A stretch of DNA of 64,000 nucleotides from Podocnemis expansa (taxonomy: Eukaryota > Chordata > Testudines > Podocnemididae): assembly GCA_007922195.1 (NCBI GenBank), contig ML682090.1, positions 69,171-133,170 on the forward strand. The letters run 5' to 3'. The notes beneath the pieces were generated by a model, which was not told where the DNA came from, did no database searches, and worked only from the letters and a program-made list of their open reading frames with translations. The translations under genes were made by a program, and so were the position numbers. Below are positions 175-63,061 of the stretch, one piece after another; the first letter of the stretch is position 1, and each line of letters begins with the position of its first letter.

Positions 175-211
175 CTAAGGAAGACAAAGCCAGATACTTG
201 ACAAAGATCAT
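175..211 (-). CDS. Leader (signal-peptide) exon of a minus-strand VJ-C1 receptor gene; rest of gene off the left edge
   Basis: Read on the minus strand from the ATG at 211, the exon encodes MIFVKYLALSSL plus one base and ends at a GT donor (gtaaaa). It aligns with the leader exon of the complete minus gene (39607-39568, MILLTKYLLLSFL) and with the orphan leader at 29715-29679 (MMLLEYLLLSFI). All three have phase-1 ends, and flanking sequence (about 100-260) is also similar. The hydrophobic peptide would target the protein to the ER. In the complete gene the V exon starts about 235 bp downstream of the leader, so the partner V exon here would lie at or beyond the left boundary. Whether the gene is intact cannot be judged from this window. 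Confidence 0.6.
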
Positions 212-1450
212 CTTTGTACGAGGAAGAAAAGAAAATCCTGACATACTAGTTCAAAGGCTGAAGCCTACTGCACTGCTATTGTGACTGCATACACAGTGTC
301 TTGGTCATTTCCAGTAAGGAACGCCTCCAAGGAGGACGTTCTGTGATGACAGATGCTAGATGGGTGGGTTAAAAACTCTGCAGAGTGTGCAGACTTCTTT
401 GTAGAAATTCTCTGCACTGCAGTAGCACAGAGATGTGTTAGAACGACCCAGAATAACCTTAAACATCCAGAACATGACTCAGTATCTCCTATGGATACGC
501 TGTATAAACAAACCACATGATGGCCAAAGGAAAATGCCCCTAAACTGTTTAGGTCTCTTCCGTGCTTTCCATGTTTTGTCCATTACTGAACCATACATTT
601 GGATAGCACAAGGCTGACCTGTAACAATCATTTGGAGCTTTGGCTTTGGACTTTGATAACACTTTAAATGATCAAACTGACACTGCAGTATGTTTGAGAC
701 ACAAGACAATGAAGAATATGATTTTTCCAAAGCAACTTGGGGCCAGATTTTCCTAGGTATTTAGATGCCTACAGATGCAGAGAAATGCCCAGATGGATGC
801 TCAAACAGGGCTCAGCTGATCAAGTAACTCACTTCTGCTGATGTCAATGGAAGTTAAGTGGCTCCTCTTGAATCTAGCCATAAACTGGCTAAAAATGAAC
901 TGAACAGGGCTTGTTAGAGTCCTGTATCTGGCTGCACAAAATACAGAGAAAGAGGTAGAGTGCACCTGTCAATGTTTGTTCTGAAACAACTGACAATAGA
1001 GGGCAACATGGGCCAATGAACAAAGCAATTGGCTCAGAAAAGAACAAATTCTCTGGGCCCTTGGGCCACAACTTCTCAGATAGAGCCCAGTTTTTGAAGC
1101 TGCATTGACTGTGGCTACAGTTGCCCAGGAAAAGTGGGGATCAATCTGTCACAAACCTTGCTATGTTGCTCTCTAATGCAGAGGACCATTTCCTTCCTTC
1201 CTTTTCTTCCGAACATTGTTTCGGAGTTATGTGGATTAACTTCAGCAACCCCAGACTGAAGCAATGTTAAACAGAAATAGGAGTTTGGCTTTAGGGAGGA
1301 TGACTGTACTGGTCAGGATTCTGCAGGATTTCTAGCCAAAGCATTACTTCTAATTACACAACTTTTCCTTTGCACCAGTGTAAAGAGGCATTTAGGGGAG
1401 TGTAAGTTACAGTCACAGCTGCTTGTGGGCCTCAGAACATTACCATGGTG
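212..1450. other. Intergenic, no gene seen
   Basis: No supported gene or recognised repeat. The short ORFs on both strands have no recognisable domain. This is presumably the 5' flank of the minus gene whose leader is at 175-211. Confidence 0.5.
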
Positions 1451-1960
1451 GAAAGTGGTTTAGTGCAAATGAGAAGCAGGTTCCTGTACTCGCTGTTAAG
1501 AGGCTGTATATTGTTAGCAGTGGTACAGATAAGCCCATAGAAATCAGCGTGTGATTCATGCACGTCTCCTCAGCTCAGTCCTGCAGGAGGCTGTGTTATA
1601 ACCCTCCCATTAACAGTGGCTCAGAACACACTGCCGAATTTACAGCTGTAAGGATCCTGGTGACTATGGTTTACACAGTACAGGGCTGACGGTGCTGGTC
1701 TGGACTAATGGTGCATCTGAGCTGTATGTGCACACGCCACTACCAAACATGGTATATGGAAAGAGGCTCATCAGAATTGCTGCTGCTTTTTGGGAGCAAC
1801 AGATAAAGTGACTGGCCCATGGGCAGTAGAAGCCTTTCTATGTTGCTCCCTTTGTCACTGAGAACAAAAGCGTTCTCCCGACACAGGAAATTCAAGATTC
1901 AGGAAACAAACATTCTGAGATCAGTCCTGGCATTTGTGATCTTGGCAGCACGTTCATGTT
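1450..1960. repeat. Segmental-duplication block shared with 18.5-18.8 kb and 22.1-22.3 kb
   Basis: The stretch around 'agtggtacagataagccc' and the following 250 bp matches 18511-18720. The stretch around 'catgggcagtagaagcct' (1815 on) matches 22240-22320. At the second locus the two halves are separated by about 3.4 kb. No coding potential was recognised, so this is treated as duplicated noncoding sequence of the receptor cluster. Confidence 0.55.
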
Positions 1961-2770
1961 TGGGGTGGGACAATTGCAGTCCACTAGCAAGCTGGAGAGC
2001 AGGATTTCTCCCTGTGACGGATTGTCCAGGGTGGGCTGTGTTTATTACCTAGAGTGAAAGGGCAGAAGGCCCAGAGGAGACTCAGAGAGACATCAACAGC
2101 AGCAGCAGACCAACACCAGCCACAAAGGCCACAGAGGAAGCTAGAAAAGTGACAGAAGTGGTTGACTTTAGCCAAGAGGATCATGATACCATCACTTCCA
2201 GCTCTTCTCTCCTCAATCCCATTTAACCCCCAAGAAGTGAGGTTAGAGGAGCCTTTCACACCTTTCAATCTCTCTGCTGTGTCCTTTCCATTAGGCTAAT
2301 TATTTGCCCTGAGAATGAGAATCTCCTCTGCACCATATACAAAGATCTCCCTATAGGTCTCTCCACACCTCATCTCCTCTTCACATCTCACCTAGAAAAT
2401 GGGTCTCTTCTGCCTCTGGTGCTCATTTGTTGCCTTTTCTCTCTGATACTAGTCTATACTTAACTCTGTAGGGGCCATCACATATTTGGTTGGCGTAAAA
2501 GTTTCCACAGGAAATTACTCTCTTGTGAGCACTGCAATTCCTCATTAGCAGGCTGCTCCTAAATATTACCCAGCGTTTCAAACTTCCTCCACCTTTCTCT
2601 AATTACAATTTACATTACTGTAGCTCTCACCATGGGCACTTTGCATTCTATTTTATTATTAATCTTAATCGTCACAGCACTTACAAGTCCCAGGGACTGA
2701 TTCCTAGGCTCTCATTGTGCTATGGATCTTAGTCTCCTCTACTCTCAGAAACAAATACAAAATCACTCAC

Positions 2771-3082
2771 CTTCAATGTATGTGGCCAGTTCCTTGTCAC
2801 TCTTGCCAAACGAGTTGAATTGAACTTCACGAGTGAAATTCTTCCCACTGGTCCAGGTCTCTCTGGGGATTGTAATGTAATTTATGAATATAGAAGAGCC
2901 ATCTCTGACTTTTAGTGAATGCATCAGCTCCTCTTCCAACAGATCTCCAGAAACACTCCAGGAAATTTGGACTGGGTTGGAAACTCCATGGACCAGACAA
3001 GCCAGATCAGCTATCATGGAGAAGAGGAGGCTCCAGGGAGACAGAGTCAGGGGCAGCGCCCAACTGCTGGTGGTGTAACTGT
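2771..3082 (-). pseudogene. Orphan C1-set Ig exon of a minus-strand receptor, conserved Cys lost
   Basis: A 312-nt open exon bounded by an acceptor (ctgatcag before 3082) and a gtgagt donor after 2771, both phase 1. It is the same length as, and closely similar to, the C1 exon of the complete gene (37442-37131). It keeps the first Cys (LACLVHG) and the Trp (QISWSVSGD). The second domain cysteine, in FTCEV of the intact copy, reads FTREV (TGT to CGT), so the core disulfide cannot form. No V exon is recognisable upstream, where a repeat starts at about 3340 and CR1s follow, and no TM exon downstream. The match to the intact locus covers about 2580-3335, including part of both introns. Most likely a dead fragment. 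Confidence 0.75.
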
Positions 3083-3339
3083 CTGATCAGAACAAAGTGG
3101 AGAGTGCAGCGTGATGCTCAGCTGAGCTGTGGTTTGATTCAGATAAAAGAAGCTCAAAGAAAGAAAGGTCCACATAATGTGAAAATATGAAGAATCTGAA
3201 AAATCAAAGGCCATCCAGCCACACTAAACAGCTGTTGGCACTTATCAGAAAGGAAATTGCGGGAAATTATACAATCTGATGCAGTCCTAAGAACATTTCC
3301 TAACTTATCATTTCAGCAAAATTTCGCTCTGTAGGGAGG

Positions 3340-4508: not shown

Positions 4509-6247
4509 CTGATCATAGATTCATAGAATCATAGAAACTGGCAGTGAGCATTACAGGTCATCAAGTCCAGTTCCCTGCACTCATGGCAGGACCAAGTACC
4601 CTCATTAAACTATCCCTGATCGGGGTTTGTCTAACCTGCTTTCAAAAATCTCCAATGTAGGAGATTCCACAACCTGCTCAGGCAACTTATTCCAGCGTTT
4701 AATCACTCTGACGGGAATATTTTCCTAATGCCTCGGCTGAACTTCCCTTGCTGTAATTTAAGCCCGTTGCGTCCCATCCAATCATTTGTGATTAAGGAGA
4801 AGAATTTTTCTCCTTCCTCCTCGTAACAACCTTTTAGGTATTTGAAAACTGTCATCATATCCCCTCTTAAGTCTCCTTTTTTTCTAGACTAAACAAACCC
4901 ACCTTTTTAAATTTTCCCTCATAGGTCAAATCTTCCAGACCTCTAATAATTTTTGTTGCCCTTCTCTGGACTTTCTCCAGTTTCTCCACATCCTTTTTGA
5001 AATGAGGTGCCCAAAACTGGACACAGTACTCAAGTTGAGGACTAATCAGTGCACAGTAAAGTGGAAGAATCACTTCTTTTGTCTTATTGACAGTACTCCT
5101 ATTAATACACCCCAGAATGGTGTTTGCTTTCTTTGAAACAGTATTACACTGCTGACTCATATTTAGCTTGGGATCTACTATTACACCCAGATCCCTTTTT
5201 GCAGTACTTCTTCCTAGGCAGTCATTGCCCATTTTGTATGTGTGCAATGGATTGTTCATCCCTAAGTGGAGTACTTGGCACTTATCTTTATTGAATTTCA
5301 TTCTATTTATCTCAAACCATTTCACCAGTTTGTCCAAACCATTTTGAATTGTGATCCTGTTCTTCAAAGCACTCACAACCCCTCCCAGATTTGTATCCTC
5401 TGTAAACTTTATAAGCTTAATTTCTATGCTATCATATACGTCATTGATAAAAATGTTGAACAGAACCGGACCCAGGACAAATCCCTCCGGCACTCTGCTC
5501 GTTATGTCCTTCCAGCCTGAATGTGAACTACTGATAATCACCTGCTGGGAGCGGTTATCCAACCAGTTTCTCACCCATCTTGTAGTAGTTCCATCTAGTT
5601 TGTGCCTCCACAGTTTATTAATAAGAATGTGATGTGAGACGGTACCAAATGCCTTACTAAAGTTTAGATATACCATATCTACCACTTCCCCTCTATCCAC
5701 CAGGCTCATTACCACATCATAGAAAGCCATCAAGTTGGTTTGACACGATTTGTTTTTGACAAATCCATGCTGATTAGCTCTAAGTGCCTTAGTTTCTTCT
5801 AGATGTTTGCAAATCAACTCCTTAATTATCTGTTCCCCTATTTTTCCCAGTACAGAGGTTAAACTGACTGGTCTATAATTGCCTGGATTGCTCTTATTTC
5901 CTTTTTTGTAGATGGGCACTATATTTGCCCTTTTCCAGTCGTCCGGGGCCTCATCCGTCTTCCACGATTTTTCAAAGATAATAGCTAAGGGGTCAGATAT
6001 CTCCTGAGTCAGCTCCTTGAATGCTCCAGGCTGTATATCATCATGCTCCGGTGAGTTGAAGACATCCAACTTGTTCAAGTAATTTTTAACTTGCTCTTTC
6101 CCTATTTTTGCTTCTGACCCTATCTAACTCTATATCAGACATCCAGTCTCCACCAGCCTTCTCAGGAAAGATCAAAACAAAGAAATTATTTAGTTTTTGT
6201 GCCATTTCCACATTTTTATTTATTGCTTTATCCTCTTTGTTGAGTAA
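4509..6247 (-). mobile_element. Older CR1 LINE, 3' part (reverse transcriptase), interrupted copy
   Basis: The minus-strand reading frame 6078-4867 (403 codons) is a CR1/Jockey-type reverse transcriptase. It has the fingers region (NIVPIYKKGN, NYRPVSLTSV), the QHGF motif, LNFSKAFGTVSHHIL (normal form DFSKAFD), the [17 protein letters not shown] region, and the C-terminal [20 protein letters not shown] block. The 3' end is the CR1 repeat 'attcatagaatcatag' at about 4517. Its 5' end at about 6247 continues, in sense, the peptide that breaks off at 8549. The element is therefore one CR1 split by the younger CR1 at 6248-8548. It carries substitutions in catalytic positions and is dead. Confidence 0.9.
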
Positions 6248-8548
6248 GGGTCATAGAATCATAGGATTGGAAGGGACCTCATAGGTCATCTTGTCCAACC
6301 CCCTGCCAGAGGCAGGACCACTCCCACTAAACCATCCCAATCATTGTTTTGTCCAGCTGGGCCTTAAACACCTCCAAAGATGGAGACTCCACCACCTCCC
6401 TCGGCAGCTCATTCCAATGCCTCACCACTCGCCTAGTAAAAAAGTTTTTTCTAATATCCAGCCCTGATCTCCCTAACTGTAACTTGGGACCATTGCTCCT
6501 CGTTCTGTCCTCCGTTACTACCGAGAACAGTCAAGCTCCATCTTCCTTGGAGCATCCCTTCAAGTAGTTGAAGGTTGCTATCAAATCCCCCCTCAATCTT
6601 CTCTTCTGCAGACTAAATAAGTCTAATGCTTTCAGTCTTTCCTCATAGGGCTTGTGCTCCAGCCCTTTAATCATTTTGGTTGCCCTCCTCTGAACTCTCT
6701 CTAGCATGTCCCTGTCCTTTTTGTAGTGGGGAGCCCAAAACTGAACACAGTATTCCAGATGTGGCCTTACCAGTGCAGAATAGAGGGGAATGATCACATC
6801 CCTTGATCTGCTGGTAATACTTCTTCTGATGCAGCCCAGTATGCTATTGGCCTTTTTGGCAGCAAGAGCACACTGCTGACTCATATCCAGCTTCCCATCC
6901 ACCATGACCCCCAGGTCCTTTTCTACACTGCTGCTACTTAACTGAATGTTCCCCAGCCTGTAGCAGTGCATGGGGTTTTTCCGTCCCACATGCAGGATTT
7001 TACACTCGTCCTTATTGAACCTCACAAGATTTCTATTGGCCCACTGTTCCAATTTAGCTAGGTCTCCCTGAATCCTGTCTTTGCGCTCCAACGTGTCTAC
7101 TGGTCCCCCCAGCTTGGTGTCATCCATGAACTTACCTATAGTGCAGTCTATTCCATCATCCAGATCATTGATGAAAATGTTGAACAGAACCGGCCCGAGG
7201 ACTGACCCCTGGGGCACACCACTCGTTACTGGTTGCCAGCTGGACATGGATCCATTGATTCCTACACACTGAAACCATTGATCTAGCCAGTTTTCTATCC
7301 ACCCTATAGTCCACCTATCCGACCCATTCTTCCTTAATTTGCCAATGAGAATGCTGTGGGGAACTGTATCAAAAGCCTTGCTAAAATCAAGGTATATCAC
7401 ATCAACGGTTCTTCCTGCATCCAGAAAAACCAGTCATCTGATCATAGAAGGAAATGAGATTGGTCAGGCATGATTTACCCTTGGTAAATCCATGCTGACT
7501 GCTCCTGATCACTTTATTTTCCTCTAAGTGTTTGAGAATGGATTCTTTGAGAACCTGCTCCATAATTTTTCCAGGGATTGAGGTGAGGCTGACTGGTCTG
7601 TAATTCCTCAGATCCTCCTTTTTCCCTTTCTTGAAAATAGGCACTACATTTGCTTTTTTCCAATCCTCTGGCACCTCCCCCGTTCTCCATGAGTTTTGAA
7701 AGATAACGGCCAGCGGTGCTGCTATCTCATTGGCCAATTTCCTTAGCACTCTTGGATGCAGTTCGTCTGGACCCATGGACTTGTGCACATCCAGCTTCTT
7801 TATGCAGTCCCTAACCTGACCTTCCATCACCAAGGGCCTGTCTTCTCTCCCATCTGCCACACCTATGGTGGTGGGCTGGGAGCTGACCCTGCCTGTGAAA
7901 ACTGAAGAAAAAAATGCATTGAGCACTTTAGCTTTTCCCTCATCCTCTGTCATGAGGATGCCTGCCCCATTCAGCAAGGGACCTACACCATCCCTGATCC
8001 TCTTCTTGTTATTAACATACTTGTAGAACCCCTTCTTGTTATCCTTTACATCCCTCGCTAGCCGCAGCTCCATTTGTCCTTTGGCCTTTCTGATTTTATC
8101 CCTGCAGTCCCTAGCAATATCTTTATATGCCTCCTTGGACATCTGACCAAGCTTCCACTTCCTGTAAGCTTCCTTTTTATGTTTAAGCTCAGAGCAGAGT
8201 TCCCTGCTAAGCCATTCTGGCTGCCTCACATGTTTGTTCTTTCTCCTAACTGGAATGGCAACTTCCTGTGCCCTTAGCAGGGTTTCTTTAAAATATAACC
8301 AACTCTCTTGGACTCCTTTCCCCTTCAGATTAGCTTCCCAAGGGATCCTGCCCATCAGTTCCCTGAGGGAGCCAAGATCTGCTTTTTTGAAGTCCGGGGT
8401 TTGTGTTTTGCTTCTTTCCTTCCTTCCTTTAATCAGCATCCTGAACTCAGCCATGTCATGGTCACTACTGCCTAGCTTGCCATTTACCTCTACCTCCCTG
8501 ATCAACTCTTCCCTGTTTGTGAGCAGCAGGTCAAGAGGTGCAAGGCCC
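6248..8548 (-). mobile_element. Younger CR1 LINE, 5'-truncated, inserted into the older CR1
   Basis: The 3' end is 'tcatagaatcataggattgg' at about 6250. Minus-strand frames cover the end of the endonuclease domain (LDLLLTNREEL, GSSDHDMAEFRML, about 8548-8430), the linker, and a full reverse transcriptase with [16 protein letters not shown] and [21 protein letters not shown]. The reverse-transcriptase frame is broken near 7400, where the upstream frame ends in a stop and the downstream frame picks up in another phase. Better conserved than its host CR1, hence younger, but not autonomous. Confidence 0.9.
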
Positions 8549-9040
8549 CTAGTTGGTCCTACACTGTCCTTGGTTTTCCTCTTGTTTCTGATGTATTTGA
8601 AGAATGTCTTTTTATTACCCTTTATGCTTTCAGCTAGTTTGATCTCTGTTTGTGCCTTGGCTTTTCGGACTTCTCCTCTACATAATTGTGTTATTTGTTT
8701 ACAGTCCTCCTTTGTAATTTGAACTAGTTTCCATTCTTTGTAGGAATCTCTCTTTATTTTTAAATTATTGAAGGTGTCATGGTCAAGCCAAGGTGGTCTC
8801 TTGCCATATTTCTTGTCCTTTCTATGCAGTGGAATGGTTAGCTCTTGTGCTCTTAATAACGTTTCTTTGAAAAACTGCCAACTGTCTTTAGTTGTTTTTC
8901 TTCTTAGACATTCTTCCCATGGTATCCTTCTCATCAACTCCCTAAGCATGCTAAAGTCTGCCTTCCTAAAATCCCTAATTTTTGTTTCGGTATTCTCTCT
9001 CCGAAGATTTCTAAGAATCATGACTGGAGGCAACAGCATT
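8549..9040 (-). mobile_element. Older CR1 LINE, 5' fragment (endonuclease-RT linker)
   Basis: The minus-strand peptide starting FRKADFSMLRELMRRIPWEE repeats, with differences, the linker peptide of the younger element (FKKADLGSLRELMGRIPWEA). It ends at KRKTKDSVGP, exactly where the younger CR1 begins. The missing continuation (LLNKEDKAINKN...) is found at the right edge of the 4509-6247 copy, which shows the nesting. Confidence 0.85.
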
Positions 9041-10047: not shown

Positions 10048-10720
10048 AATCTGCACTAAAAACAACTCACTTTCTGCTAAAAAGACCTTCTGCAATGCCA
10101 AGAGGTGCTAACACAGACTTCAGAGAGAGATATAATTCTTTTCTTCCAGTTCAACAACTGAAACTTGGAGAGGGGATCAAATAGCCTGTTTCAAAAAAAT
10201 CTTGAATGCTAGAACAAATCCCTTGAAAACAGGTTTTGATTTTGGATAATATTATGAATTGGGTGCAAAATCTACTTTTTTTAAATGCCTCTGTAGTACA
10301 TACAGGCTGATGTACTCTTCTGCAGAATGATTAAAATAGAATTTGAAACACAAATGGCTAACTTAATAAATGACTCTTCTATGTACCATTTAGTAAAATA
10401 CTAGGGGTTTTTACCACAGATTTGGGCAAGTTTCAGAATACATTTGTAATCTGGTGATTAGGAAACACAACCGGAAATCTGTGCTGCTGACTTCTGAACT
10501 TGGAAGCTGTATTTTTGTTGATACATTACTAATTCCCACACAGGCTATATGAACCCTAACAAAATAAATGGCTAGAAAGCAGGGAAATGTTAAAATGAAT
10601 TTTAACAAAGAGGTGCATATTGTGTACTCTTGGATCATCTACGCTTTATAGTGTATTTCAAAAGCTCAATGTTTTTCCAGGGATCACTGTATTAACACAT
10701 TCATTTCTTCCCCTGCACAC

Positions 10721-12740
10721 TGACTGCCTTGGAAGAAGGGATACAAATTCTCCAAAGCTCCAAAGCCAGGTGTGGCTGCACTCTGGAGAGACTGTACAAC
10801 TGGACTGTAAAATATCAGAAGAAGAAGTATGTGTGATGTGGTACAAAGAACAACAGAGTGGAAGTTTACTGCGGATTTTCCAGTGTTACAAATTTGGACG
10901 TTCAGATGGAATATACTCAATTAAAGTGAGCATTGCTGGAAACACATTTTCTCTAATTATCTGTAATGTACAAAGAGATGATTCAGGGTGTACTTCTATG
11001 GCCCCTTTGCCTCCATTTATTTATGTCCCAACTTCGGGAATGGTACCAGACTCATTGTCACAAGTGAGTTTCCAATGGCACAGAACAATGATGTCCCAGT
11101 GCTAGAAGGTGAGGTGACTATGAATCATCCTCTTTTGGGGCAAGATTGTGACCAATTCCCATTCAGCTTTAAGCCATCATTACTAGGGCAGAGGCAGCAC
11201 GATCCAGGCAGTGAGCCAAGGCATTGTTTCGGACATCTGGAGAGCTGGGCTCTGTTTCTTAATCACTGGGCACCAAGGGTGAGATTTTCAAAAACAATCA
11301 GCAGCCAACAGCTCCTGTTTACATGACCTAATAAATGACCAGAGTTTTAAATGTTCTGATCAAAACCTAGCTTTTGAAAATATGGAGCCTTTCAGAAAGT
11401 CTGACCTTGGATTTCCAAGGATCTTGGACTCCTCATCTTTATAATGGGAATAAGGGCTCTCTTATGTAAAAGCACTTTGAAGTCTATGGACAAAAAGCAC
11501 TGAATCAATGCTAGGTTTTAATATTTTCATGCACTTCAGGCAGGCTGATAAATTAGCAGTTGGATTTTAAATTTACATTTGCAGATGATTCTTTCTGAAA
11601 CTGCCTGAGCCCAGGATGAGGAGTATGTTTCACCTAGCTACTACCTTATTAAGACTTCAATAAATTGGGTTCTTTTCTAGGCATTCACTAAGCTTCATGA
11701 AGTTATTCTGTCCATGTGTACATAGGGGGGGCTATTCACTGTCTGAAGCAGCACAACATGAATTGAACATACAAATAATACTAGTAATATCTAATAATCC
11801 AAACTTGGTCCAGACATTCCAAAAATAAAGGCAAGGAATTACTCCAGGCATTACTAGAGGGTGTATCTCAAACTAACAGGATGAATGCAATAGAAAAGTT
11901 GTCTTGATTATTAGGTTTGCATAAGAACCTTTCCCCTTTTGGGCTTTTCATACCTAGATCTCAAAGCACCTTGCAGAAGTGACTAAGTAGCGTTTATGAA
12001 TAAGTATGATTTCCCCAGTTTTACAGTTGAGGAAACTGAGGCACAACGGGGCCATGAACACAGCAAGTCAGAGACAGAGCTGGGAATAGATGCTCAGGCC
12101 TCTTGACTCCCACTCTTGTGTCCTCACCACCAGGCTGACCAGATCCTCCGATGGGTTTTATATAGAACCAAACTGGCTGTTAGCACTCAGCAAATAATTC
12201 ACAGAGATCGAGTCAGGGCAAACTTCCAAGCAGTGACAGAGAGGGGGAGGTCTCTCCAGGTGGATGCCTCAGGGTCAGACATAACACGTGGAAGAAACAA
12301 GTCATTAGACATTGAAAACATGCTGCACTGGCTGGGGTGATTTAGAAACTACATATGGACTAGCAGACGTGCCAGCAATAGTTTTTCCTGATCCTTAGTT
12401 TTTGTGACTCAATTTCCTCTCTCTTTTAGATGCCTCAGAGTCGAGACTTTCCATTGTGGTACCCTCTGTCCCGGAGAATGCTGAGGTCCCCCCCACCCCT
12501 CCCAATCATTCCTCTTCTCTGCCTGCTCTTTGATTACTCTCCTCCCTGGAGTATGGTCTGGGATACTGGGGAGGAGGATCTGAGGGTCAGATGGATGCTG
12601 GAGCCATAGGTGGGAAACAGGTCTTTGGAGTCTAATGAGAATCCCTTCTGAGACATGGAACCAAGAGATGACCTACACTTGTACAGTGAAGGAGAACGGC
12701 ATGGAGAGACACATCAGTGCTATGCTCTCCAAGGAAACAG
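10721..12740 (+). pseudogene. Decayed plus-strand VJ-C1 receptor gene
   Basis: The V exon is 10721-11063 and the C1 exon 12430-12740, both clear relatives of the intact gene at 45786-52525 (for example LDCKISEEEVCVMWYKEQQ). Defects seen: no leader or promoter (replaced by a SINE); the V acceptor reads CAC instead of CAG; a net 2-bp insertion in framework 1; a net 1-bp deletion that destroys the YYC cysteine region and shifts the FGNGT strand; and insertion/deletion frameshifts with an early stop in the C1 exon (near 12480-12535). No TM or tail exons are seen before the transposons at 12.94 kb. The intron 11064-12429 holds no other gene. It has a MIR-like SINE at about 12005-12130. Confidence 0.85.
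12005..12135 (+). repeat. MIR-like SINE
   Basis: Contains 'gaggaaactgaggcac', 'cagagctgggaatagatgc' and 'ttgactcccactcttgtg', the conserved MIR/CORE-SINE body. The orthologous copy in the intact gene is at about 48020-48160, so it predates the duplication. Confidence 0.7.
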
Positions 12741-12940
12741 GTCCATTATCATATAATCAAACCTAACCTACCTACTTGGACTTTCATACAACCCCTCACC
12801 ATGGTATCCAGGCATGAAGAGTCAACAAAACTTACTGCAAGCCAGAGAAATAGAATCAGACAGGATGGTTTAGGTGAATGGTAACTAGTAGGAGCGAGGA
12901 GAGTTTTTGAGAATCTATGAGTATATCAACACTATAGTAC

Positions 12941-16392: not shown

Positions 16393-17146
16393 TAAAACTC
16401 CTCTGTGCAAACTGCACATTGCTAGCCTGGAAACAATCATGCGAATCTTGCTTAAAAAGGTCAGCAGTTGACTGAAAAAGGAGGGTAGGATTGAGATTGT
16501 CTTTAATGAAAAATTTAAGTCCTCTCAGTTTGTCACTTTCATTTTTACTGACTTTCCAAAACAGACAGAAAAAGCCAAATCCACATTTAGCAGAATTACA
16601 GGGGTAATAGAATGGCCTGAATCCTAAATTCCTGGATTTTGAAGATGTGGTCAATGGCACATTAAATGAAAACTGAAGTTTTTCTTCACTACTTACAGCA
16701 GTTTTCTGATCAATTCATACTCATGCCAAGATTATCATGCCACTTCAATGGGATTTGTGCATTTACAACTGATGGGCTGAGTAGGCCTCCGCTGTGTAAT
16801 TAACAGTACTCCTTTACATCCAAACTCAATTTGTGCAGAGATTCCCAATGGAGTTTCATTTACCTATTTCAGGCAGAAGTTTACCCCCTGTAAGAAAGCA
16901 AGAGATGAAGATGGAAATAGTGTGATGAGCCATCAGATGCAAGACAAGTTCCAAGCATTGAACATGACTCAATACAGCACTCTTTCTAGGGAAGAGCTGC
17001 TGAGTTACAGGGGTGTAGGGGAACAAATGGTGAGCAGAGACAAAACAGAGGGAACTGGCAGAGCTGGTTTCAATCTATGATTCTGTGAATTATCAGCCTG
17101 ACTATTAACTGAGTCTTCATATCAGGTACAGACTGTAGTATGTTGA

Positions 17147-17295
17147 TTACCTGGATTGGAACAGCAGTGATCCAAAGCTTGACACACACATCACCACCAT
17201 GAAAAACACTACAGTTATTGTGTAGCGCACCATCTCTGGCATACACCAGCTGGGATGGACTGTGGAGGAAGTTGATACCAGTGGACTATCAGGCA
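17147..17295 (-). pseudogene. Orphan transmembrane exon of an activating-type minus receptor
   Basis: After a good acceptor (tctctcag before 17295) the phase-1 frame reads PDSPLVSTSSTVHPSWCMPE and then MVRYTITVVFFMVVMCVSS, ending at TAA 17149-17147. It aligns with the TM exon of the complete gene (36809-36685) and keeps the Cys before the membrane and the Arg at its start. It runs nine codons further than that copy and ends at cag|gtaatc, which could also serve as a splice donor. No C1 or V exon precedes it: similarity to the intact intron stops at about 17390, where an inverted-repeat element begins. A leader exon in the same orientation is at 29679-29715, so this is probably the 3' end of a gene gutted by repeat insertion and deletion. 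Confidence 0.75.
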
Positions 17296-27103: not shown

Positions 27104-27605
27104 ATGAATCATAGGGCTGGGAGGGACCTCATGAGGTCATCTAGTCCAACCCCCTGCTAAAAGCATGACCACTCCCACTAAATCATCCCACCCAGGGATT
27201 TGTCTAACTGGGCCTTAAATGTTTCCAAAGATGGGGATTCCACCACCTCCCTAGGTAACCCATTCCAGTGCTTCACCACCCTCCTAGCAAGAAAGTTTTT
27301 CCTAATATCCTACCTCAACTGCCCCAGCTGCAGCCTGAAACCATTTGTCCTTGTTCTGTCCTCTGTTGCTACTGAGAACAGCCAAGCTCTCTCCTCTTTG
27401 GAGCACCCCTTCAAGTAGTTGAAGGTTGCTATCAAATCCCCCCTCAGTCTTCTCTTCTGCAAACTAAATACGCCTAGTTCCTTCAGTCTCTTCTTGTAAG
27501 TCATGTGCCCCAACCCCCTAATCATTTTCATTGCCCTCTGCTGGACTCTAATTTGTCCACATCCTTCCTGCAATGGGGAGCCCAAAACTGGACACAGTAT
27601 TCCAG
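27104..27605 (-). mobile_element. CR1 LINE, 3' fragment inserted in the DIRS element
   Basis: The 3' end 'aatcatagggctgggaggga' begins at about 27106. The minus frame encodes the end of CR1 RT ([20 protein letters not shown]) and continues to 'gagcccaaaactggacacag'. DIRS-like sequence is present on both sides. Confidence 0.85.
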
Positions 27606-27803
27606 ATGGTCCTTCACTTTGAGCTTTTGTGACCCATTACTGGTGGACCCCTTGAAGGAGAAGACCTGGCACCATATGGTGGTGCTTCTTGGACATTGTC
27701 CTTGAGGTGCTCCTTTTCAGCAACTCCAGTGAAGTACTGCAGTGCCGAGGCATCAGTGACCACTCAGAGGACAAACTTGAAAACAAAACCGGCATTCTCA
27801 CTC

Positions 27804-45785: not shown

Positions 45786-45837
45786 ATGCACAAGATGTTT
45801 TACCAGATAGTTGGGATGGTTCTAATCTATCTGCACA
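45786..45837 (+). CDS. Leader exon of inhibitory-type receptor
   Basis: MHKMFYQIVGMVLIYLH plus one base, donor gtaagt. The matching exon at 61994-62036 starts at the codon aligned with the second ATG here (45795), so initiation at Met4 is also possible. Confidence 0.8.
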
Positions 45838-48800: not shown

Positions 48801-51800
48801 TTCTAGGGATTTTATATTACTCTCCTCACCAAGGTATCTGGGCACCAAGAGTCAGTGACATCTACTGCAAACTAGAGAAATAGAAAGAATCAGCCAGGAT
48901 GGCTCAGGGGAATGATAGCTAATAGAAGCAAGGAAAAGTTTTGGTAATTATTGAGAGGGTGCAAATTGTAGAGCGAACAATTATGATTGCTTCCCTATCA
49001 CCCACCTTTCCCATCCCAGACTTTCTGAAAACCTTTACTTTTCAATCCTCAGTGGTGAGAAATGGGCTTCTGGTCCAGCAGCCCAAACCTTCCCCTCTGT
49101 GTGAGCACAACAAAGTTATAGAAGCATCATTTCAGGAGAGTCAAGGGAATAACTAGGAGCGTGAGGAAGGCAATGAACAAAGGAAACAGCAGGATGAATG
49201 TCAGGAAAGCTACCTGGCAGTGAGACCTAGCAGATAAAGGAACAGATGCCCAGGATCAAGGCTGGATGCTCACGTAGATGGGACTGAGCAAGGCACAGGC
49301 CATTCTAACAGAAAATAACTCTGCAATGGCAGAAGTGGCTCTACGGAACAATGTCCAGTGCAAGCCAGCAGGATTATAGCTGGTCTATACTTTTACTGAT
49401 CAACTTTGTTGGGCCATCATGTAAATTTTTGCCATCACAGCCATGCACATAAACGTCTGAGTGTAGATACAGTTTTACTTGGTGCCTTACACTAGCACAG
49501 CTTATTTCAGTTCCTGAGCCTGGAGGAACTATGCAGACGACGTTACAGTGGCAAAACTTAAGTGTAGTCAACCCCTTCAACAAATCAACAGGGACCACAG
49601 AAGAGTGTTTCCATCCCTGAGCCTTTTCTTAATTTCCCTAATACTTCACTGTTTGCTGGGAAAAAATGAATGAGCTACAATCTGACCATGAAACTCAAAG
49701 ATCCTCACATTAGAGAAATTGTGGGTGGGGAGGAAGAAAGAGACATTACATGATAACTTTTTGGCCATTATGGTATTTGCAAGGCCCCTTGTCCTTTGCA
49801 TCTAGCCAAGTTCCACAGGGGCGGTTGTGTTAGTTTAGTACAGCAAAAAAAGCAAGGAGTCTTGTGGCACTTAAAGACTGACAGATTTATTTATTGCATG
49901 AGCTTTAGTGGGAGAACCGAAATTGAACTAATATGCAAATGAAATTGTGTGAAAGAGGGGCTGAATCATGACTATGGATTCTTGTCACATTATAACAGGT
50001 AATTTGACTTCATCCTCCCTCTGTGTGCTGTTTCCTCGAGTTTGAATCCTTACAAATGCTCTGATTTGCTGTTGCAGTGTGACCTGATCCCATGCCTTAC
50101 ACTCCCCTGCATTTATTTTCATCCAATTCTGTGAGTTCTCCCTCTTCAAAGCATCTGATGAAGTGGGATATTCTCCCACGAAAGCTCAAGCGATAAATAA
50201 ATCTGTTAGTCTTTAAGTGCCACAAGACTTCTTGCTTTTTTGTCCTTTGCATATCCCACTTCCTCCACATACAGAAGAAGGACAACATGCTATAGAGCAT
50301 ACAACAATGGGTGTTGAGCTTGGGGAAGAAAACCTCTCTTTGTCCCTGGAGTTACATGGGATGTAGAAGTAAGCTGTGCATCTGTTCTGAAAGGAGTTTT
50401 TTTATGCTCTTCAGGGAAAAGTGATGCTGAAGAGTGTATGATTGTACTTTACACTGGGCTGCCCTGCCTTTTCATCCTTCTCCTTATCCAGATGTTGATC
50501 TTGCTCTACAGAAAGTGCTCCAGCAGAGGTAACTCATTCATAACTCTGTCAGCTACAAAACAGCCACGCCTCACACATCCATATAACTGTCTCTTTCTGT
50601 TTCTTTCATCAGGGAGAGCTGTGCAAAGAAGGAATCAGATACGTATGAAGCAGGTCCCACAGGTAAACTGGCTTTTCAGCTTTTGGCATATCAGAAAGAT
50701 ACAGTGCATAGAATCATAGAAAATTAGTGTTGATAAGGACCTCAGGGGATCACTTAGAGTCAAAGCACAGGTGGGGGTCCAGTACTGGGGTGCAGACCCT
50801 CAGGCACTGGGTCACAGCTCCCCCTGCTGCTGCTGCCAAAAGACTGCAAAGATTGTTCAAAAAGGTAATTGTTGAGTCATGGGCATAAATGATTTTTTTC
50901 AAGTGGGTCCCAAGAAAAAAAAGTTTGAAAATCACTTAGTTATACCAACCAAACTCTTCTCAAAGCAGCACCAATCCCTACTAAATCATTCCAGCCAGTG
51001 TCCTAACCACAGGGAGTTAGAACCAGTACCCTGGCCAAATTCTTACCCTATTATCTACACATTGCCTCCCAAGTTTTCATTTTAATGTATTCCTCTCTGC
51101 CCTTCTAATGGAAGTGTTATGTAGGATTATTGGTAGAGAAGAACTGCTGGGTTCCACCCCAGAGATGCCTGCAGGTTAGGGCTAGTGAAATAGTGCCATG
51201 TCTATTTTTATAAGGGACCATCAGGTAACCTAATGTGATCTCATGTACATTACAAGCTACAAAAAGCTTTCAGACAGCCACATGCTAAACCCAGCACCCA
51301 GGACAGATAACCGAGGACAAAAGCGAGATCTGTACCATTAAAAATGTCCTCCACATTCTTATAATAGAAAAAATCAATCAGCTGATTCCCTTTGAATTTT
51401 CCAAATAAAGTTCTTTGTTGGGATAAACTGCACATCAAACAATCAAGGTCAGTGTGGAATTTCTTAGCAGAAGTCAGAAGGGCTTGGACTGCTCTAAGTG
51501 AATTAAAAACAAGGGATTAAACCCTTAGAATACCACTGCAACCCCCCCCCCCATAACAATATGTCCTGAAGTGACAGAGATGAGATTTTGACAGGTTGCT
51601 GACATGATCCTAGTCTATAAAACACCTTGTCTAGTTATATTGGCTATGTCTACACTGGCAAGTTAGTTCGAATTAAGGAGGCTTAATTTGAATTGACTTT
51701 TTGCCTGTCTACATCAGGCTTTCATTAGTTCGAACTAAGGAATGCCTTAGTTCGACCTAATGAACGCTTAGTTTGAACTAGTAACTACCACCAGTTAGTT

Positions 51801-52525
51801 CCAATTAAGTGTTAGTTCAAACTAAGTACAGTGGAGAGCAGGACTAACCCTTAGTTCAAACTTCATAAGTTCAAATGAAGAGCAGTTAGTTTGCACTAAC
51901 AAAGTAGTTCAAGCTAGTCTAACATTAGTTTGAACTAGTCCACACTGTTAATTTGAACTAATGAGTTAGATGTTAGTTCTTACTAACCTCAAACTTATTA
52001 GTTCAAACTAACAAGTTCAAACTAACTTTGCCTAATAGAGACATAGCCATAGTGTTGTTGGAGTGGGTTGGTCCAAGGATATTAGAGAGAGAACGTGGTT
52101 GAGGTAATAGCTTTTCTAAGAGCAACTTCCACACAAAGCTTCTCCCTCTGTCTTTCACCAACAGCAACTGGTCCAATAAATGATGTTACTTTATTCCATC
52201 TTGTCTAACTATGAGACTCTGGAGAACAATGCTAGTTAAACAAATAACATTGCAAACTGCCATTGAGCCAAGTCACTTCAGCTCTCAGAGTTTCTTTTTT
52301 CTTTCCCCGATTTAACGGCCTTGTGTATTTTGTCTACAAGCTTTTCAGAGCAGGGCCTGTCTCTTCCTGTCTACATGCTGTGACCAGCACATGGAGGCTC
52401 TGCCTCCCCTGTGACTTCTAAGTTCTGCTCTTATTCAAAGGCTTAATAATAATACTGGTTCCTCCCTTTTTCTATTTCAGACTGAATATGCAACTCTGCC
52501 ATACAACAGAAAGCCTCCTCTCTGA
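45786..52525 (+). CDS. Complete inhibitory-type VJ-C1 receptor gene (six exons)
   Basis: Exons: 45786-45837, 46544-46885, 48457-48768, 50415-50528, 50613-50662, 52481-52525; total 915 nt, 304 codons plus stop, in frame throughout. Leader MHKMFYQIVGMVLIYLH; V-set 19-131 (Cys46, Trp57, DDSGIYYC with Cys110, J-like FGNGTRLIVT 122-131); C1 132-235 (Cys159, Trp173, Cys216); a short stalk with Cys243; membrane about 244-267; tail 268-304 ending TEYATLPYNRKPPL. The tail tyrosine 293 sits in TxYxxL, close to the ITSM consensus and to TEYATI of PD-1, so recruitment of SH2 phosphatases or adaptors is inferred. V and J are joined in the germline. It lies head to head with the activating-type gene, 6.2 kb away. 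Most likely a lymphoid or myeloid surface receptor; ligand unknown. One weak point is the C1 donor (gtctgg). Confidence 0.8.
46544..46885 (+). CDS. Germline-joined VJ exon of inhibitory-type receptor
   Basis: 342 nt, acceptor ctatacag, donor gtgagt, phase 1. AQLDCKISEKEE, ATWYKEQQ, FSLIIHKVQRDDSGIYYC, then FGNGTRLIVTG. The V exon at 62720-63061 has exactly the same length. The GNGT in the G strand is also an N-glycosylation sequon. Confidence 0.92.
46886..48456 (+). other. Intron between VJ and C1 of the inhibitory-type gene
   Basis: Aligns with 11064-12429 and with 63062-64000. It contains a GC-rich insertion (about 46910-47085) not present in the other two copies, and the MIR-like SINE at about 48020-48160. 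No coding sequence. Confidence 0.6.
48457..48768 (+). CDS. C1-set exon of inhibitory-type receptor
   Basis: 312 nt after a polypyrimidine acceptor (ctccttcag). It begins DASEPRLSILAPSALEDAEL. The core is LLCLISD, VLWDIG, YICTVKENSTG; ETWNQETTYIC is typical of Ig/TCR constant-type domains. The donor gtctgg departs from consensus. Reading through it gives 12 further residues (GLVSYHQTQYIF) and a stop at 48804-48806. Confidence 0.88.
48769..50414 (+). other. Intron between C1 and TM exons
   Basis: Contains a short inverted-repeat element at about 49380-49573 ('ggtctatacttttactgatc' against 'aacttaagtgtagtcaaccc') and an inverted pair of turtle-type SINEs (minus about 49808-49918, plus about 50000-50245). 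No coding sequence. Confidence 0.6.
49808..50245. repeat. Inverted pair of turtle-type SINEs
   Basis: 'aagcaaggagtcttgtggca' on the left arm and 'taagtgccacaagacttctt' on the right. The right copy extends to about 50000, matching the 34.5 kb copy. The arms could pair in the intron RNA. Confidence 0.75.
50415..50528 (+). CDS. Transmembrane exon of inhibitory-type receptor
   Basis: Acceptor cttcag; GKSDAEECMIVLYTGLPCLF, then ILLLIQMLILLYRKCSSR, donor gtaact. A single hydrophobic segment followed by basic residues (YRKCSSR) gives a type I topology. It contains no basic residue inside the membrane, unlike the activating type. Confidence 0.82.
50613..50662 (+). CDS. Basic cytoplasmic exon
   Basis: GRAVQRRNQIRMKQVPQ between a catcag acceptor and a gtaaac donor. 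It shifts the phase from 1 to 0, which exactly suits the last exon. Confidence 0.72.
50706..50938. repeat. CR1 3' stub and hAT-like fragment in intron
   Basis: 'catagaatcatagaaaatta' is a short CR1 3' end. It is followed by sequence related to the termini of the hAT-like element at 56825 ('ccctcaggcactgggtcac', 'aagtttgaaaatcacttag'). Confidence 0.5.
51642..52048. mobile_element. TGTCTACACTG-family inverted-repeat element (MITE) in last intron
   Basis: GGCTATGTCTACACTGGC at the left and '...agagacatagcc' at the right. The interior is almost wholly made of 'ttagttcgaactaa' palindromes on both arms, so the whole element could fold as a hairpin. Same subfamily as 58647-59765. Confidence 0.85.
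52481..52525 (+). CDS. Last exon with ITSM/ITIM-like motif
   Basis: Acceptor ctatttcag, then TEYATLPYNRKPPL and TGA. The ORF is short, but phase 0 matches the upstream exon, and the motif fits TxYxx(V/I/L). Confidence 0.75.
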   Translation, partial: TEYATLPYNRKPPL

Positions 52526-58365: not shown

Positions 58366-58646
58366 CTGTAGGTCAGGAGGGGTGTTCGCCCCTAACTGTC
58401 TGCCCTTAGACCTAGGAGTGAATGAGATATAGGTCAAACCCTAGTCTCCACTTTGGGCCCTTTTCTGGGTGTGATGTGGTACAGAGAGCAGAGTGGAAAT
58501 TTACAGTGGATTTACCAGAGTCTTTTGTATGCAACTTCAAGTGGAAAATATTGGAATAATGACAGCATTACAGGAAATTGTTTTTCTCTAATTGTCAGTA
58601 ATGTCCAGAAAAATGACTGAGGAGTTTATTACTGTGGCCTCTTTAT

Positions 58647-59765
58647 GGCTATATTTCAGAACTTCAGAAAGTTAGTTCAAATTTGTTAGTTCAAACTAAT
58701 AAGTTCGAAGTTAGTTTGAACTAAACTCAAATTTATTAGTTCAAATTAACATCGTGGACTAGTTAGAACTAACATTAGTTTGAATTTGTCCACTTCATTA
58801 TTTCAAACCAGCTGCCCTTAGTTCAAACTTAGTACCATATAGACTCATGTATACGCCAAGAATTTTGTGTCTTCAAATCCCTTTTGAAAAAGGCACTCAG
58901 CTTATGCATGGGTATGTACAGTAGCTGGGAGTTTTGAAATCTTCTGCCCTGAGCATGCTTGGAGCATGCTCAGGCTGGGAGCCCCAGCACGTGGAGTGGC
59001 CTCCAGAGCAGCCAGATAAGAGGGCCCTGGGTTGGGGGAGTCAACCCAGGTGGAGCCAGCATCAGGGCAGGGCAGCTAGGGAGGGAGCAGGGGACTCTAG
59101 GGAAGCTGGTGGGGGGGTTAGGGAGGGGCACAGGAACTCTGGGGCAGTGCGACATGGGGGGGGGTGGGAAGGGGTTGGGGATTCAGGAGAAGCCAGTGGC
59201 AGGGTGGCGGGGGTTAGGAAAAGGATCAGGGATGTAGCGCAGGGTGTGGGGGGTGTTAGAGAAAGGATCAGGTACGCAGCAGAGGCTGACAGTGCAGGGT
59301 GGGGGGGGTTAGGGAAGGAATTGGGGACATGGCAAGGCTGGTGGCACAGGGTGGGGGGCGGTTAGGGAAAGGATCGGAGATGCAGCAGAGGCTGGTGGTG
59401 CAGGGAAGGGGTGTTTAGGGAAGGGGGTTGAGGATGCAGGGGGGATGTATACTTTTTTTCCAGTTTTCGGAGGTTATAACCAAGGATTGGCTTATAGACG
59501 GATTGACTTATACATGAATATATATCTGGTAAATTCGAACTAAGGGTTAGTCCTAGTCTCCACTGGACTTAGTTTGAACAAACAATTGAACTAAGTGCTT
59601 AGTTCAAACCAACCTGTGGTAGTTACTAGTTCGAACTAAGAGTTCATTAGTTCAAACCATGGAATTCCTTAGTTTGAACTAATGAAAGGTTATTGTAGAC
59701 AGGGACTAAGTTAGTTCGAATTAAGCCTCTTTAATTTGAGCTAACTTGCCAGTGTAGACGTAGCC
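58647..59765. mobile_element. TGTCTACACTG-family element inserted in the V pseudo-exon
   Basis: Left 'ggctatatttcagaacttca' and right '...cagtgtagacgtagcc', with TAT on both sides (3-bp duplication). The arms consist of 'agttcaaactaa' palindromes. A second inverted-repeat element is nested at about 58846-59525 ('tatagactcatgtatacgcc' against '...gacttatacatgaatata'), with a G-rich tandem core. Confidence 0.85.
58930..59450. repeat. G-rich degenerate minisatellite
   Basis: Imperfect units of the form 'gttagggaaaggatcagg' followed by 'atgcagcagaggctggtg' and a G run, about 55-65 bp each. Core of the nested element. Confidence 0.65.
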
Positions 59766-59822
59766 TATGTCTGGTGTTTTTACAGCCTAACTTCAGGGAT
59801 GGGACCGGACTAATTGTCGCAG

Positions 59823-60846
59823 GCAAGTTTCCAAAGGCTCAGAACAATGACAAACTGTTGTCAAGGGGGGTGGGGCCACTGTGGGCCAGAGGCCAGGCTC
59901 TGCTCGGGGGATGGGGCCCGAAATGATGCACTAACGCCAATGGCACCTTGTAGATCTTAAAGTGCTTTTTTGGAAGAGAGTCATTATTCCCATTATACAG
60001 ATGAGGACCCTGAGATGTATGAAATCCTAGGTCCAATTTTTTTTTCAAAAGCTAAGTCCCTTACAGAAATATGTATACACGGTACTATTTCACCATCCCT
60101 GACCTGCTGTCAGCTCTGGGCTGGAACCCTGCACAGCACTTCCATTAGAAGAGAAAAACAGCAAATTAAAATGCAATCTCAGAGAATTTAGAACACAATG
60201 TGTAGATACTAGAACAGTGGTTCCCAACCTTTTCAGTAACATGGCACGCTTCAATGGCTATGTAATCATTTAGATTTTTAAATTGAATTAACTTAAATCA
60301 AACTAATTAAATTAAACTAATAATCATCAAATCCAATTAAGTTAAGTTGAATTAACATGGTCCCAGTAGAAACCCAAATTGAACTAGGATGTTCATGGAC
60401 AGGACTTGCTAGTTCGATTTAGGAAAGAGGCACCATGGGACGTGTGGCAGGTACTGGTGAATTTCTTTTTGCTGTGTTTGCTGGCAAGACAAGGAATTAG
60501 TGTGGCCGCATCCTTATTAGCATCTGAAAGCCACAGAGAGAAAGAAGGCAGCTCACATTTTTCTAGGCTGGCTCTTTTCAGATTGACACCTGCTCTGCCT
60601 AGATTTCTCACTACACAGATGAAGCAATACCAGGAAAGAACCCTTAAAATTTAAAGGAATACATTACAATTTAATGAACCATAATGGGAAAAGGTATTGC
60701 CATTTTTTATATGCTAATTCCACCTGACCATATACAGTAAATACATGAAGCACAGAGAATATTACACATAAAATGCAGTCAACAGAAAATCTTGTCATGG
60801 GCAGCCAATTACTGCACAAATATTCCATCTGAGACACACCCTACTT
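59823..60846. other. Noncoding spacer
   Basis: 59.83-60.2 kb follows the V pseudo-exon and resembles a VJ-C1 intron start. 'cagtggttcccaaccttttc' at about 60214 looks like an hAT-type terminus, followed by AT-rich palindromic sequence. 60.5-60.65 kb aligns with 44.95-45.1 kb. Confidence 0.4.
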
Positions 60847-61703: not shown

Positions 61704-61869
61704 CCCTGTATTGTTTCCCAGTCTGAGCTTGAATTTCTCTTCTGCTCGATTTTGGAGTCAAAGGAATTCTTTTCCTGCAGGTTTCCTCTGCCATCACTAA
61801 GAATAAGATCCTGAATGTGGTCCTCAAGATTTCTTGCTCCTCTTTTTTTTATTGTGTGCTACCCTACAG

Positions 61870-61960
61870 CTCTTTAAAAGGAAATATAACATTTTCCTCT
61901 CCACGTGACAAAGTCTTTCATCAACAGATCCATTAGCTAGCAGGCATCTGTATCTCACAG
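61870..61960 (+). promoter_or_regulatory. Conserved upstream block of the right-hand plus gene
   Basis: 'aaaaggaaatataacatttt' followed by 'cctctccacgtgacaaagtc', the counterpart of 45660-45760, with CACGTG at 61902-61907. The leader ATG is about 90 bp downstream. Conservation through duplication supports a promoter role but does not prove it. Confidence 0.45.
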
Positions 61961-61993
61961 TATCACATATTCGTTATTGAAGAAGGGGACAAG

Positions 61994-63061
61994 ATGTCCC
62001 ACCAGACAGTTGGGATGATTCTAATCTATTTGCAGAGTAAGTATTTTAGCCTGAATTATTTGACGCTTATTTTCCACCACGCTAAACACTATTAACTTTC
62101 TGCAGGAGGACATTTTGCAGTTTTATGATATGTAAACATCAAACTGCTGAGAGAAAAATGAAATTTTAGTTCATCAACTGACATCTTGAGAAGTGGTGAA
62201 TTTTTTTTTTAAATTAAAATCACCTGAATGCTGGAGACAAACACCTTGAAAATAATTTCTGGTTAACATTCTGAATTGGAGTGCAGAATTATGCTAAGGT
62301 ATTACATATGAGCTGATGTATTTTTTTCTGCTGAATGACCAAAAAAAGAGAATTGGAAATATAAGTTGCTAAGTTAATAAATGATGAAAGTTTTTTACTG
62401 TTGATTTGGGTAAGCACAAGAGAGAATGTGCAGTCTTGTGATTAGGGCAGGGAACTGGAGGTCTCTTCCCGCTGGGTCTAAACTTGGAGGTTTGTTTTTG
62501 GTGGTACACTACATTAATTGTAATACAGAGTATGTGAGTCTTAACACCCCCCTTCGCTGTCCTCCCCCCAAAGCCTAGAAATAAAGAGGAATTAAAATAA
62601 ATTTTTAGTGACAGTGTACAGTTTGTTATTCTTCAATCACTTGGTCTCTATGGTATATTGTACAAGCTGAATCTCGCAGGCCTCACTGTATTAACACACT
62701 CCTTTCTTTCCCTGCATAGTGACTGCCTCAAAAGAAGGAATACATATCTTGCAAAGCCCAGCACAGTTGTGGCTGCAGTCTGGACAGACTGCACGGCTGG
62801 ACTGCAACCTTTCAAAAGAAGAATGGAGTGTGTTGTGGTACAGAGAACAGAGTCAAAATATACAGAGGATTTACCAAAGTCTTAGCTATGCACTTTCAGA
62901 AGGAAGATATTCAAATAATAACAGCATTACAAAAAATCACTATTCTCTAATTATCAGTAATGCCCAGAAAAATGACTCAGGAGTTTATTACTGTGGCCTT
63001 TTTCAGTTGAAAGAGTCTCAACAGCCCAACTTCGGGAATGGGACCAGACTAATTGTCACAG
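61994..63061 (+). CDS. Plus-strand VJ receptor gene, intact leader and V exons, continues beyond the right edge
   Basis: Leader 61994-62036 (MSHQTVGMILIYLQ plus one base, donor gtaagt) and VJ exon 62720-63061 (342 nt, acceptor cctgcatag, donor gtgagt). V-set marks: ARLDCNLSKEE, VLWYREQ, YSLIISNAQKNDSGVYYC, then a CDR3-like FQLKESQQPN and FGNGTRLIVTG. No stop or frameshift. In the intact gene the C1 exon follows 1571 bp after the V exon, so here it should start near 64.6 kb, outside the window. It differs from the 46544 exon mainly in the predicted CDR loops and framework 3. N-linked sites at NNS, NDS and NGT. Whether its tail is inhibitory is unknown. Confidence 0.85.
62037..62719 (+). other. 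Leader-V intron of the right-hand plus gene
   Basis: 683 bp, aligned with 45838-46543. No repeat insertion and no other gene seen. Confidence 0.6.

Follow-up and report, generated by a model that had tools for sequence, protein, structure and literature searches.

A probable cluster of non-rearranging VJ-C1 paired receptors with two sub-families in the turtle Podocnemis expansa

Results

Organization of the gene cluster

A stretch of 64,000 nucleotides from the turtle Podocnemis expansa (assembly GCA_007922195.1, contig ML682090.1, here C127, positions 69171-133170, called the window below) was analyzed; the contig has 2,843,385 bases and the genome 2.39 Gb. The window probably covers one section of a turtle gene cluster for membrane-bound paired receptors, in which a joined variable and joining (V-J) domain is followed by one C1 constant domain (VJ-C1). 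The receptors form two sub-families, type A with a tyrosine tail and type B with either an immunoreceptor tyrosine-based inhibitory motif (ITIM) or a membrane arginine. The data are best read as a family of tetrapod paired receptors that have a VJ-C1 layout and do not rearrange.

Two complete gene models (A2 on the forward strand and B1 on the reverse strand) and seven fragments or edge exons were found in the window, type A lying on the forward and type B on the reverse strand. A preliminary description made from the sequence alone had claimed two complete genes in the order leader, V+J, single C1 and transmembrane (TM) exon, with at least six partial copies in both orientations; this was confirmed in both respects. 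In A2, donor scoring located the leader exon (MFYQIVGMVLIYLH; 45795-45837), which resembled the pattern MSHQ.VG..L.YLH of its relatives. The V+J exon (46544-46885) ended in FGNGTRLIVT and matched the Pfam V-set at 2e-16, and the C1 exon (48457-48768) matched the C1-set at 5e-6. The splice model placed a membrane exon with an uncharged core at 50415-50528 and a first cytoplasmic exon at 50613-50662; the last exon (52481-52525) read TEYATLPYNRKPPL up to the stop codon and contained the tail motif TEYATL. In B1, the leader exon (MILLTKYLLLSFL; 39607-39568) was assigned by eye, as its weak donor was missed by donor scoring, and it matched the leader of relatives weakly. The V+J exon (39332-39000; terminal FGNGSTLIVG) and the C1 exon (37442-37131) matched V-set and C1-set at 2.2e-9 and 5e-8, respectively, and the membrane exon (36785-36685; VVRYGIAIFLAVLMVSLSLV) carried an arginine followed by a stop, with no tail. 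The TxYxxL tail first reported for one type and the tailless membrane arginine reported for the other were those of A2 and B1.

Across C127:1-263170, seven A genes, all on the forward strand, and five B genes, all on the reverse strand, were assembled, and the two types had the same exon order and the same intron phases. The splice models demanded AG/GT sites in phases 1,1,1,1,0, which had first been read by eye; some of the V acceptors used are displaced into the exon by a few codons relative to the true sites, and the model of the gene Be runs as far as its membrane exon. All 12 spliced models had open frames, held V and J within one germline exon and had exactly one C1 exon between V and TM, each gene carrying its own C1 and membrane exon. 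When the genome was searched with the A protein, 30 full-length, stop-free V exons were located at 7.5-826 kb of C127, all on the forward strand, and five more were broken or partial. Near-full-length matches to C1 numbered 28, of which some had stops within the matched stretch and one lay on the reverse strand; these counts are lower bounds, from 136 of 377 candidates scored. Exons of type B were located on contigs C127, C136, C62 and C63. The start of C62 (1280-2480) carried a V exon and a C1 exon that shared 84% and 81% identity with their B1 counterparts; they represent a close paralog, or possibly an allele or an adjoining piece.

The median ratio of nonsynonymous to synonymous divergence (dN/dS) between paralogs was 0.46 for V of type A (45 pairs) and 0.56 for V of type B (10 pairs); for C1 it was 0.40 (28 pairs) and 0.46 (10 pairs). 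The top value, 1.36, came from the A8-A10 V pair, whose sequences are very close. V and C1 are under purifying selection overall.

Recombination signals and constant exons

Eight sites resembling a recombination signal sequence (RSS) were present in the window, compared with a mean of 5.8 in 20 shuffles, and none lay within 150 bases of any V exon there. Over 263 kb, 46 such sites were found, again with none at 150 bases or less from any of 15 V exons. By contrast, the same scan detected an RSS directly behind the V frame at 8 of 8 loci of immunoglobulin (Ig) lambda type in this genome, which had been picked by V-set search as positive controls and of which L002-L004 carry an identical site and may be copies. 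Exons for Ig lambda C were located on C81, those for Ig kappa C on C35, and exons resembling those of the major histocompatibility complex (MHC) on other contigs. Among the 150 C1 candidates scored of 226, those on C127 were all of the A/B family, with T-cell receptor (TCR) C not separately identified. The preliminary description had taken the cluster for VJ-C1 paired receptors and not an Ig or TCR locus, and had named a standard TCR or Ig locus with functional RSSs as grounds for refuting this; on these results its view was supported.

Relatives and distribution

Among 5.77 billion database sequences, the best single-unit relatives matched A at 1.7e-132 and B at 8.2e-118, and the finding is therefore not due to chance. 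The 70 matches to the A protein were all named as turtle proteins. The B protein had 113 matches, namely 109 from turtles, the protein P0096, one from the amphisbaenian Rhineura and two from the salamander Pleurodeles. A profile search gave 173 matches, and the 120 listed added Sceloporus, Lerista, Hemicordylus, Alligator sinensis and the caecilian Rhinatrema; no bird protein was among these 120. The cluster had been called reptilian, which is too narrow for type B, with its relatives in salamander and caecilian. Database names of the relatives included Ig kappa, Ig gamma-1, Ig alpha-2 and TCR 'like'.

The joint between V and C1 was well kept: VGDSY was invariant in a 10-row alignment and VGDS in a 25-row alignment, the motif [LV][IV]VGDS[YF] was retained in 99 of the 113 B matches, and a J or joint motif was retained in 67 of the 70 A matches. 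In a V+C1 tree of 43 rows, type A formed a single group (100/100) on a long branch, with turtle B and the crocodilian, squamate and amphibian rows on the other side. B1 was sister to a protein of Emydura (100/96), and a neighboring A gene was sister to one of Pelusios (95/87), placements that point to a turtle, probably a side-necked one. The 1,252-base contig of P0096 encoded 311 residues that run through V, C1, TM and ITIM without a break in the frame. Since about 4.1 kb separates the V exon from the ITIM exon in the genes Bc and Bf of this genome, P0096 is probably a spliced transcript (a cDNA contig), and it gives indirect support to the joining of such exons in RNA. The squamate models P0186 (Sceloporus) and P0189 (Lerista) contained a second V-C1 unit or an additional C1-like one, and are either real tandem receptors or fused predictions.

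Signaling parts

Type A combined an uncharged membrane stretch with a TxYxx(L/V) tyrosine tail. Tail motifs were searched as patterns over whole proteins and compared with the strict rules for the ITIM and for the immunoreceptor tyrosine-based switch motif (ITSM). The pattern [TS][EMQ]Yxx[LVI] was found in 42 of the 70 A matches, the other 28 being mostly truncated or oddly ended models, and one neighboring A gene carried TEYATV, which fits the ITSM rule.

Type B had two outputs, an ITIM tail (GILYAHLDF) or a membrane arginine without a tail. The ITIM-like pattern [ILVSC]xYxx[LIV]D[FL] occurred in 67 of the 113 B matches and the membrane pattern VRY or ARY in 15, and no protein had both; 31 had neither, several of them with near variants (VRYT, LRY, VHY, GILYNHLGF). 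The arginine gene Be lies beside the ITIM genes Bc and Bf, and their V exons differ by a dN of 0.11-0.15. The B genes thus match the pattern of paired receptors, being clustered, with similar outer parts and signaling parts that are predicted to be opposite.

ITIM-like tails were also present outside turtles, in Rhinatrema (GIVYMQLDF), Pleurodeles (P0187; DILYADLDF) and Alligator (P0195; GIIYAQLDL), and in Hemicordylus and Sceloporus with C in place of I. The pattern search did not find them in P0188, P0190, P0192, P0194 or P0196. Three models of Alligator sinensis ended differently: P0192 and P0196 terminated in YTELSTQHQETYENL, which has the spacing of an immunoreceptor tyrosine-based activation motif (ITAM), and P0194 in YTGLTTRDQETYENF, a near-ITAM. 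When the tail of P0196 was compared with solved structures, the Fc receptor gamma chain accounted for five of the rows returned (best 0.0081, with identity at 14 of 25 residues). The ITAM pattern was also fitted, evidently by chance, by P0066, a turtle model of type A. The contig of P0191, an ITIM-like Alligator model, was equal in size to that of P0192 and P0196.

Resemblance to known receptors

The V domains of both types scored best with a human kappa V profile (40 and 43 bits), followed by TCR alpha V (35 and 26); SIRP (27 and 19) and NKp30 (18 and 15) scored lower, in a small panel of mostly hand-entered references. Four lambda V segments of the same genome, taken without J, were included; one scored 27 and 23 bits and three fell below NKp30. 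For C1, Ig lambda C was best (25 and 28 bits), then kappa C (20 and 26), with SIRP C1 at 7 and 1. The profiles of A and B matched each other with a probability of 99.5% for V and 93.7% for C1, and the B profile spanned antibody V and C1. A structure model of B (pLDDT, the predicted local distance difference test, 76.8; pTM, the predicted TM-score, 0.51) gave 50 listed fold matches, all antibodies, at query TM-scores of 0.31-0.51. The C1 domain of B matched UrIg2 at 6.5e-10 (PDB 9dmx).

Trees of V and of C1 with reference sequences had been suggested as a further check. The C1 tree placed A and B among Ig and TCR constant domains, and the V tree placed them with NKp30 and SIRP at 83/88 with unsettled bootstrap; branches were long in both. 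Holding A and B together was not rejected in either tree (p-AU, from the approximately unbiased test, 0.35 for C1 and 0.41 for V), nor did either tree show it. The profile panel and the V tree therefore disagree on the affinity of V, weakly, and neither is decisive.

PRARP, reported by Fu and colleagues in 2019, is said to consist of two non-rearranging genes of the immunoglobulin superfamily (IgSF) in chicken. In PMC10751288, UrIg is a VJ-C1 gene that does not rearrange; the paper also mentions PRARP and states that tetrapods have several known genes of the VJ-C1 type. PMC11599192 lists CD79, NITR, SIRP, CD8, NKp30 and PRARP as joined VJ families. In both, PRARP is a VJ gene and a putative remnant of an antigen-receptor precursor. 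By description in these citing papers only, PRARP resembles A and B in being non-rearranging IgSF with a joined VJ. The elasmobranch UrIg also shares a joined germline VJ and a C1 with A and B, and B C1 matches UrIg2; however, UrIg2 is named V-C1-C2-C3 in PDB 9dmx, whereas A and B have one C1 followed by TM and form a paired tandem cluster.

The Ig light chain is like A and B in its two-domain V-C1 build and gave the top sequence and fold resemblance, but it rearranges and lacks membrane or signaling exons. NKp30 (NCR3) shares a joined VJ and an N-terminal membrane arginine, and its J end, GNGTRLVV, is close to the GNGTRLIV of A2. It has a single VJ Ig domain without C1, whereas a C1 exon was present in 12 of 12 A/B models, and their V scored only 18 and 15 bits with it. 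NKp30 is also MHC-linked; among the 150 C1 candidates scored, none on C127 was MHC-like. SIRP has a joined VJ followed by C1 in a V-C1-C1 layout with paired signaling, and differs from the single C1 of A and B, which scored 7 and 1 bits with the SIRP C1 profile. The teleost NITRs are joined VJ genes in tandem paired clusters, with V or V plus an I-like domain and no C1; A and B, in contrast, have a Pfam C1-set domain. Membership in NKp30, NITR and SIRP was rejected on domain layout. The preliminary description could assign the genes to no named family, and this stood for NCR3, NITR and SIRP; A and B do belong to a kind already known, that of non-rearranging VJ-C1 genes such as UrIg and PRARP. 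No description of the turtle expansion, with its two sub-families and mixed outputs, was found in the literature searched, which leaves out key subscription papers.

Other features of the window

A1 consisted of a frameshifted type-A V+J exon (10720-11071) and a C1 exon with a frameshift and a stop (12429-12742), both on the forward strand. A3, on the same strand, was a partial type-A V with an internal stop (58471-58656), its J end split off (59771-59830). Donor scoring found no leader for A1 or A3. The leader (MSHQTVGMILIYLQ; 61994-62036, forward) of A4 was found by donor scoring, and its V+J exon (62720-63061, forward) was intact, with C1, TM and tail to the right of the window at C127:139770-144892. 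At the other edge, the leader exon (KMIFVKYLALSSL; 214-176, reverse) belonged to Bf, a complete ITIM-type B gene to the left of the window (C127:69384-64912). The limits first given for the cluster, 175 and 63061, correspond to this leader on one side and, on the other, to the last base of the A4 V exon.

The other B copies, all on the reverse strand, were remnants. B2 had an orphan C1 exon (2766-3086; tblastn 2e-47 to B1 C1) and the remnant of an inhibitory-type membrane exon (2047-2091). An Arg-type membrane exon remnant lay at 17146-17272, an orphan ITIM exon (GILYILLDF; 3.7e-9) at 21061-21156 and an orphan short cytoplasmic exon at 22018-22062. A decayed tail sequence, with an ITIM-like IIYAQM after a stop, was found 3' of B1 (35709-35803). 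An assembly gap of 400 N (37971-38370) separated copies at 37344-37970 and 38371-38997. What looked like the 5' portion of a further C1 exon (38473-38371) was rejected as an extra gene copy and is an assembly duplication artefact, because the 627-base flanks differ at only one base around the gap.

Long reverse-strand frames at 4867-9039 and 27310-27636 had the look of reverse transcriptase of the long interspersed nuclear element type, and they overlap the expected position of the B2 V exon. The frames look CR1-like. A further open frame of 219 residues (26147-26806, reverse) may belong to a retroelement.

Discussion

Alternative explanations

That the exons are part of an ordinary Ig or TCR locus would agree with the resemblance of V and C1 to antigen-receptor chains and with the Ig or TCR 'like' names of the relatives. 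We nevertheless rejected this explanation, and give it almost no chance of being right: RSSs were missing near 15 V exons while 8 of 8 control loci had them, V and J were joined in one exon in all 12 models, every one of which has a C1 and a membrane exon to itself, and the Ig C exons sit on contigs other than C127. The explanation that the cluster consists mainly of decayed, non-functional copies draws on the broken pieces in the window, namely A1, A3, B2 and those near 17 kb and at 21-22 kb; it is very improbable given 30 intact A V exons, 12 spliced models (one with a doubtful donor), dN/dS medians of 0.40-0.56 and tails conserved across turtles.

Two alternatives concern origin, and both deserve more weight. 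The genes may derive from a germline V-J join in an Ig light-chain-like gene of an early tetrapod, which would make them a derived offshoot and not a relic from before RAG, with the same working. The best C1 matches of both types to Ig lambda and kappa C, the best V match to human kappa V, the antibody-like fold of the B model and the place of A and B among Ig and TCR constant domains in the C1 tree all fit this origin; on the other hand, three of the four lambda V segments of this genome fell under both SIRP and NKp30, the V tree grouped A and B with these other joined VJ domains (at its unsettled support), and both trees had long branches. We regard the light-chain origin as a substantial possibility that falls somewhat short of even. 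The second alternative is that A and B are the reptile and amphibian side of the PRARP family, which would make the find a greatly enlarged offshoot of a family that already has a name. It gains from the accounts of PRARP and of several known tetrapod VJ-C1 genes in PMC10751288 and PMC11599192, and loses from the lack of bird proteins among the 120 of 173 matches listed and, weakly, from location: PRARP is said to lie in the MHC, and no MHC-like C1 exon was found on C127 among the 150 scored. We consider it possible but lean against it.

Several observations weigh against the reading of the cluster as working paired receptors of two sub-families. The structure model of A was too poor for use (pLDDT 54.8). 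Because AG/GT sites were sought in preset phases, their presence is only moderate evidence, and in 1 of 12 models (Bb) the membrane donor is doubtful. Many copies within the window are broken, and B1 stops where its relatives continue for some residues. The A2 motif TEYATL departs from both the ITIM and the ITSM rule in their strict form. Of the activating and inhibitory pairing first proposed, the ITIM and arginine genes standing side by side remain, but the split lies inside type B, with the TEYATL tail of type A outside both strict rules. The ITAM-like tails of Alligator are predicted gene models; Pfam ITAM was below the cut-off for P0194 and unlisted for P0192 and P0196, and the top row for the P0196 tail was an unrelated Arc repressor construct (0.0055), Arc proteins taking 7 of 12 rows.

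Proposed function and significance

The outer part of these putative receptors is one germline-fixed V-J domain and one C1, like a non-rearranging, membrane-bound antibody light chain, and variety comes from gene copies. The tyrosine tail of type A probably docks SH2 proteins. By motif rules, the type B ITIM is predicted to be inhibitory through SHP-1/2, and arginine-type B to associate with a partner that carries an ITAM, for example the Fc receptor gamma chain; the Alligator B models with a tail like that of the gamma chain lend indirect support to such an ITAM-chain route. With surface expression presumed, the likely job would be paired-receptor sensing on innate, natural killer-like or myeloid cells. 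A wider proposal is that a light-chain-like VJ-C1 family that never rearranged has come down from at least the tetrapod ancestor and retained the layout inferred for the pre-RAG receptor, giving turtles a gene-copy repertoire of at least 30 receptors beside the rearranging one, with ITIM, arginine and, in Alligator, ITAM outputs; we offer it as a speculative and rather unlikely proposal.

Turtle gene models can carry the label Ig kappa, Ig gamma or TCR 'like' without being Ig or TCR genes, which may distort counts of reptile antibody genes. In the painted-turtle genome, 365, 131 and 94 models cluster with Ig heavy, lambda and kappa V, according to PMC4054807; our guess is that some of these Ig-like models belong to the A/B family. 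According to PMC10751288, the antigen receptor is expected to have had the form of a joined VJ-C1 gene before RAG, and only a small number of such genes are known. A family that is large, under constraint and spread over several tetrapod groups, with outputs of more than one kind, would offer many sequences for testing the pre-RAG idea, and it hints at how VJ-C1 genes may have worked, as paired innate receptors.

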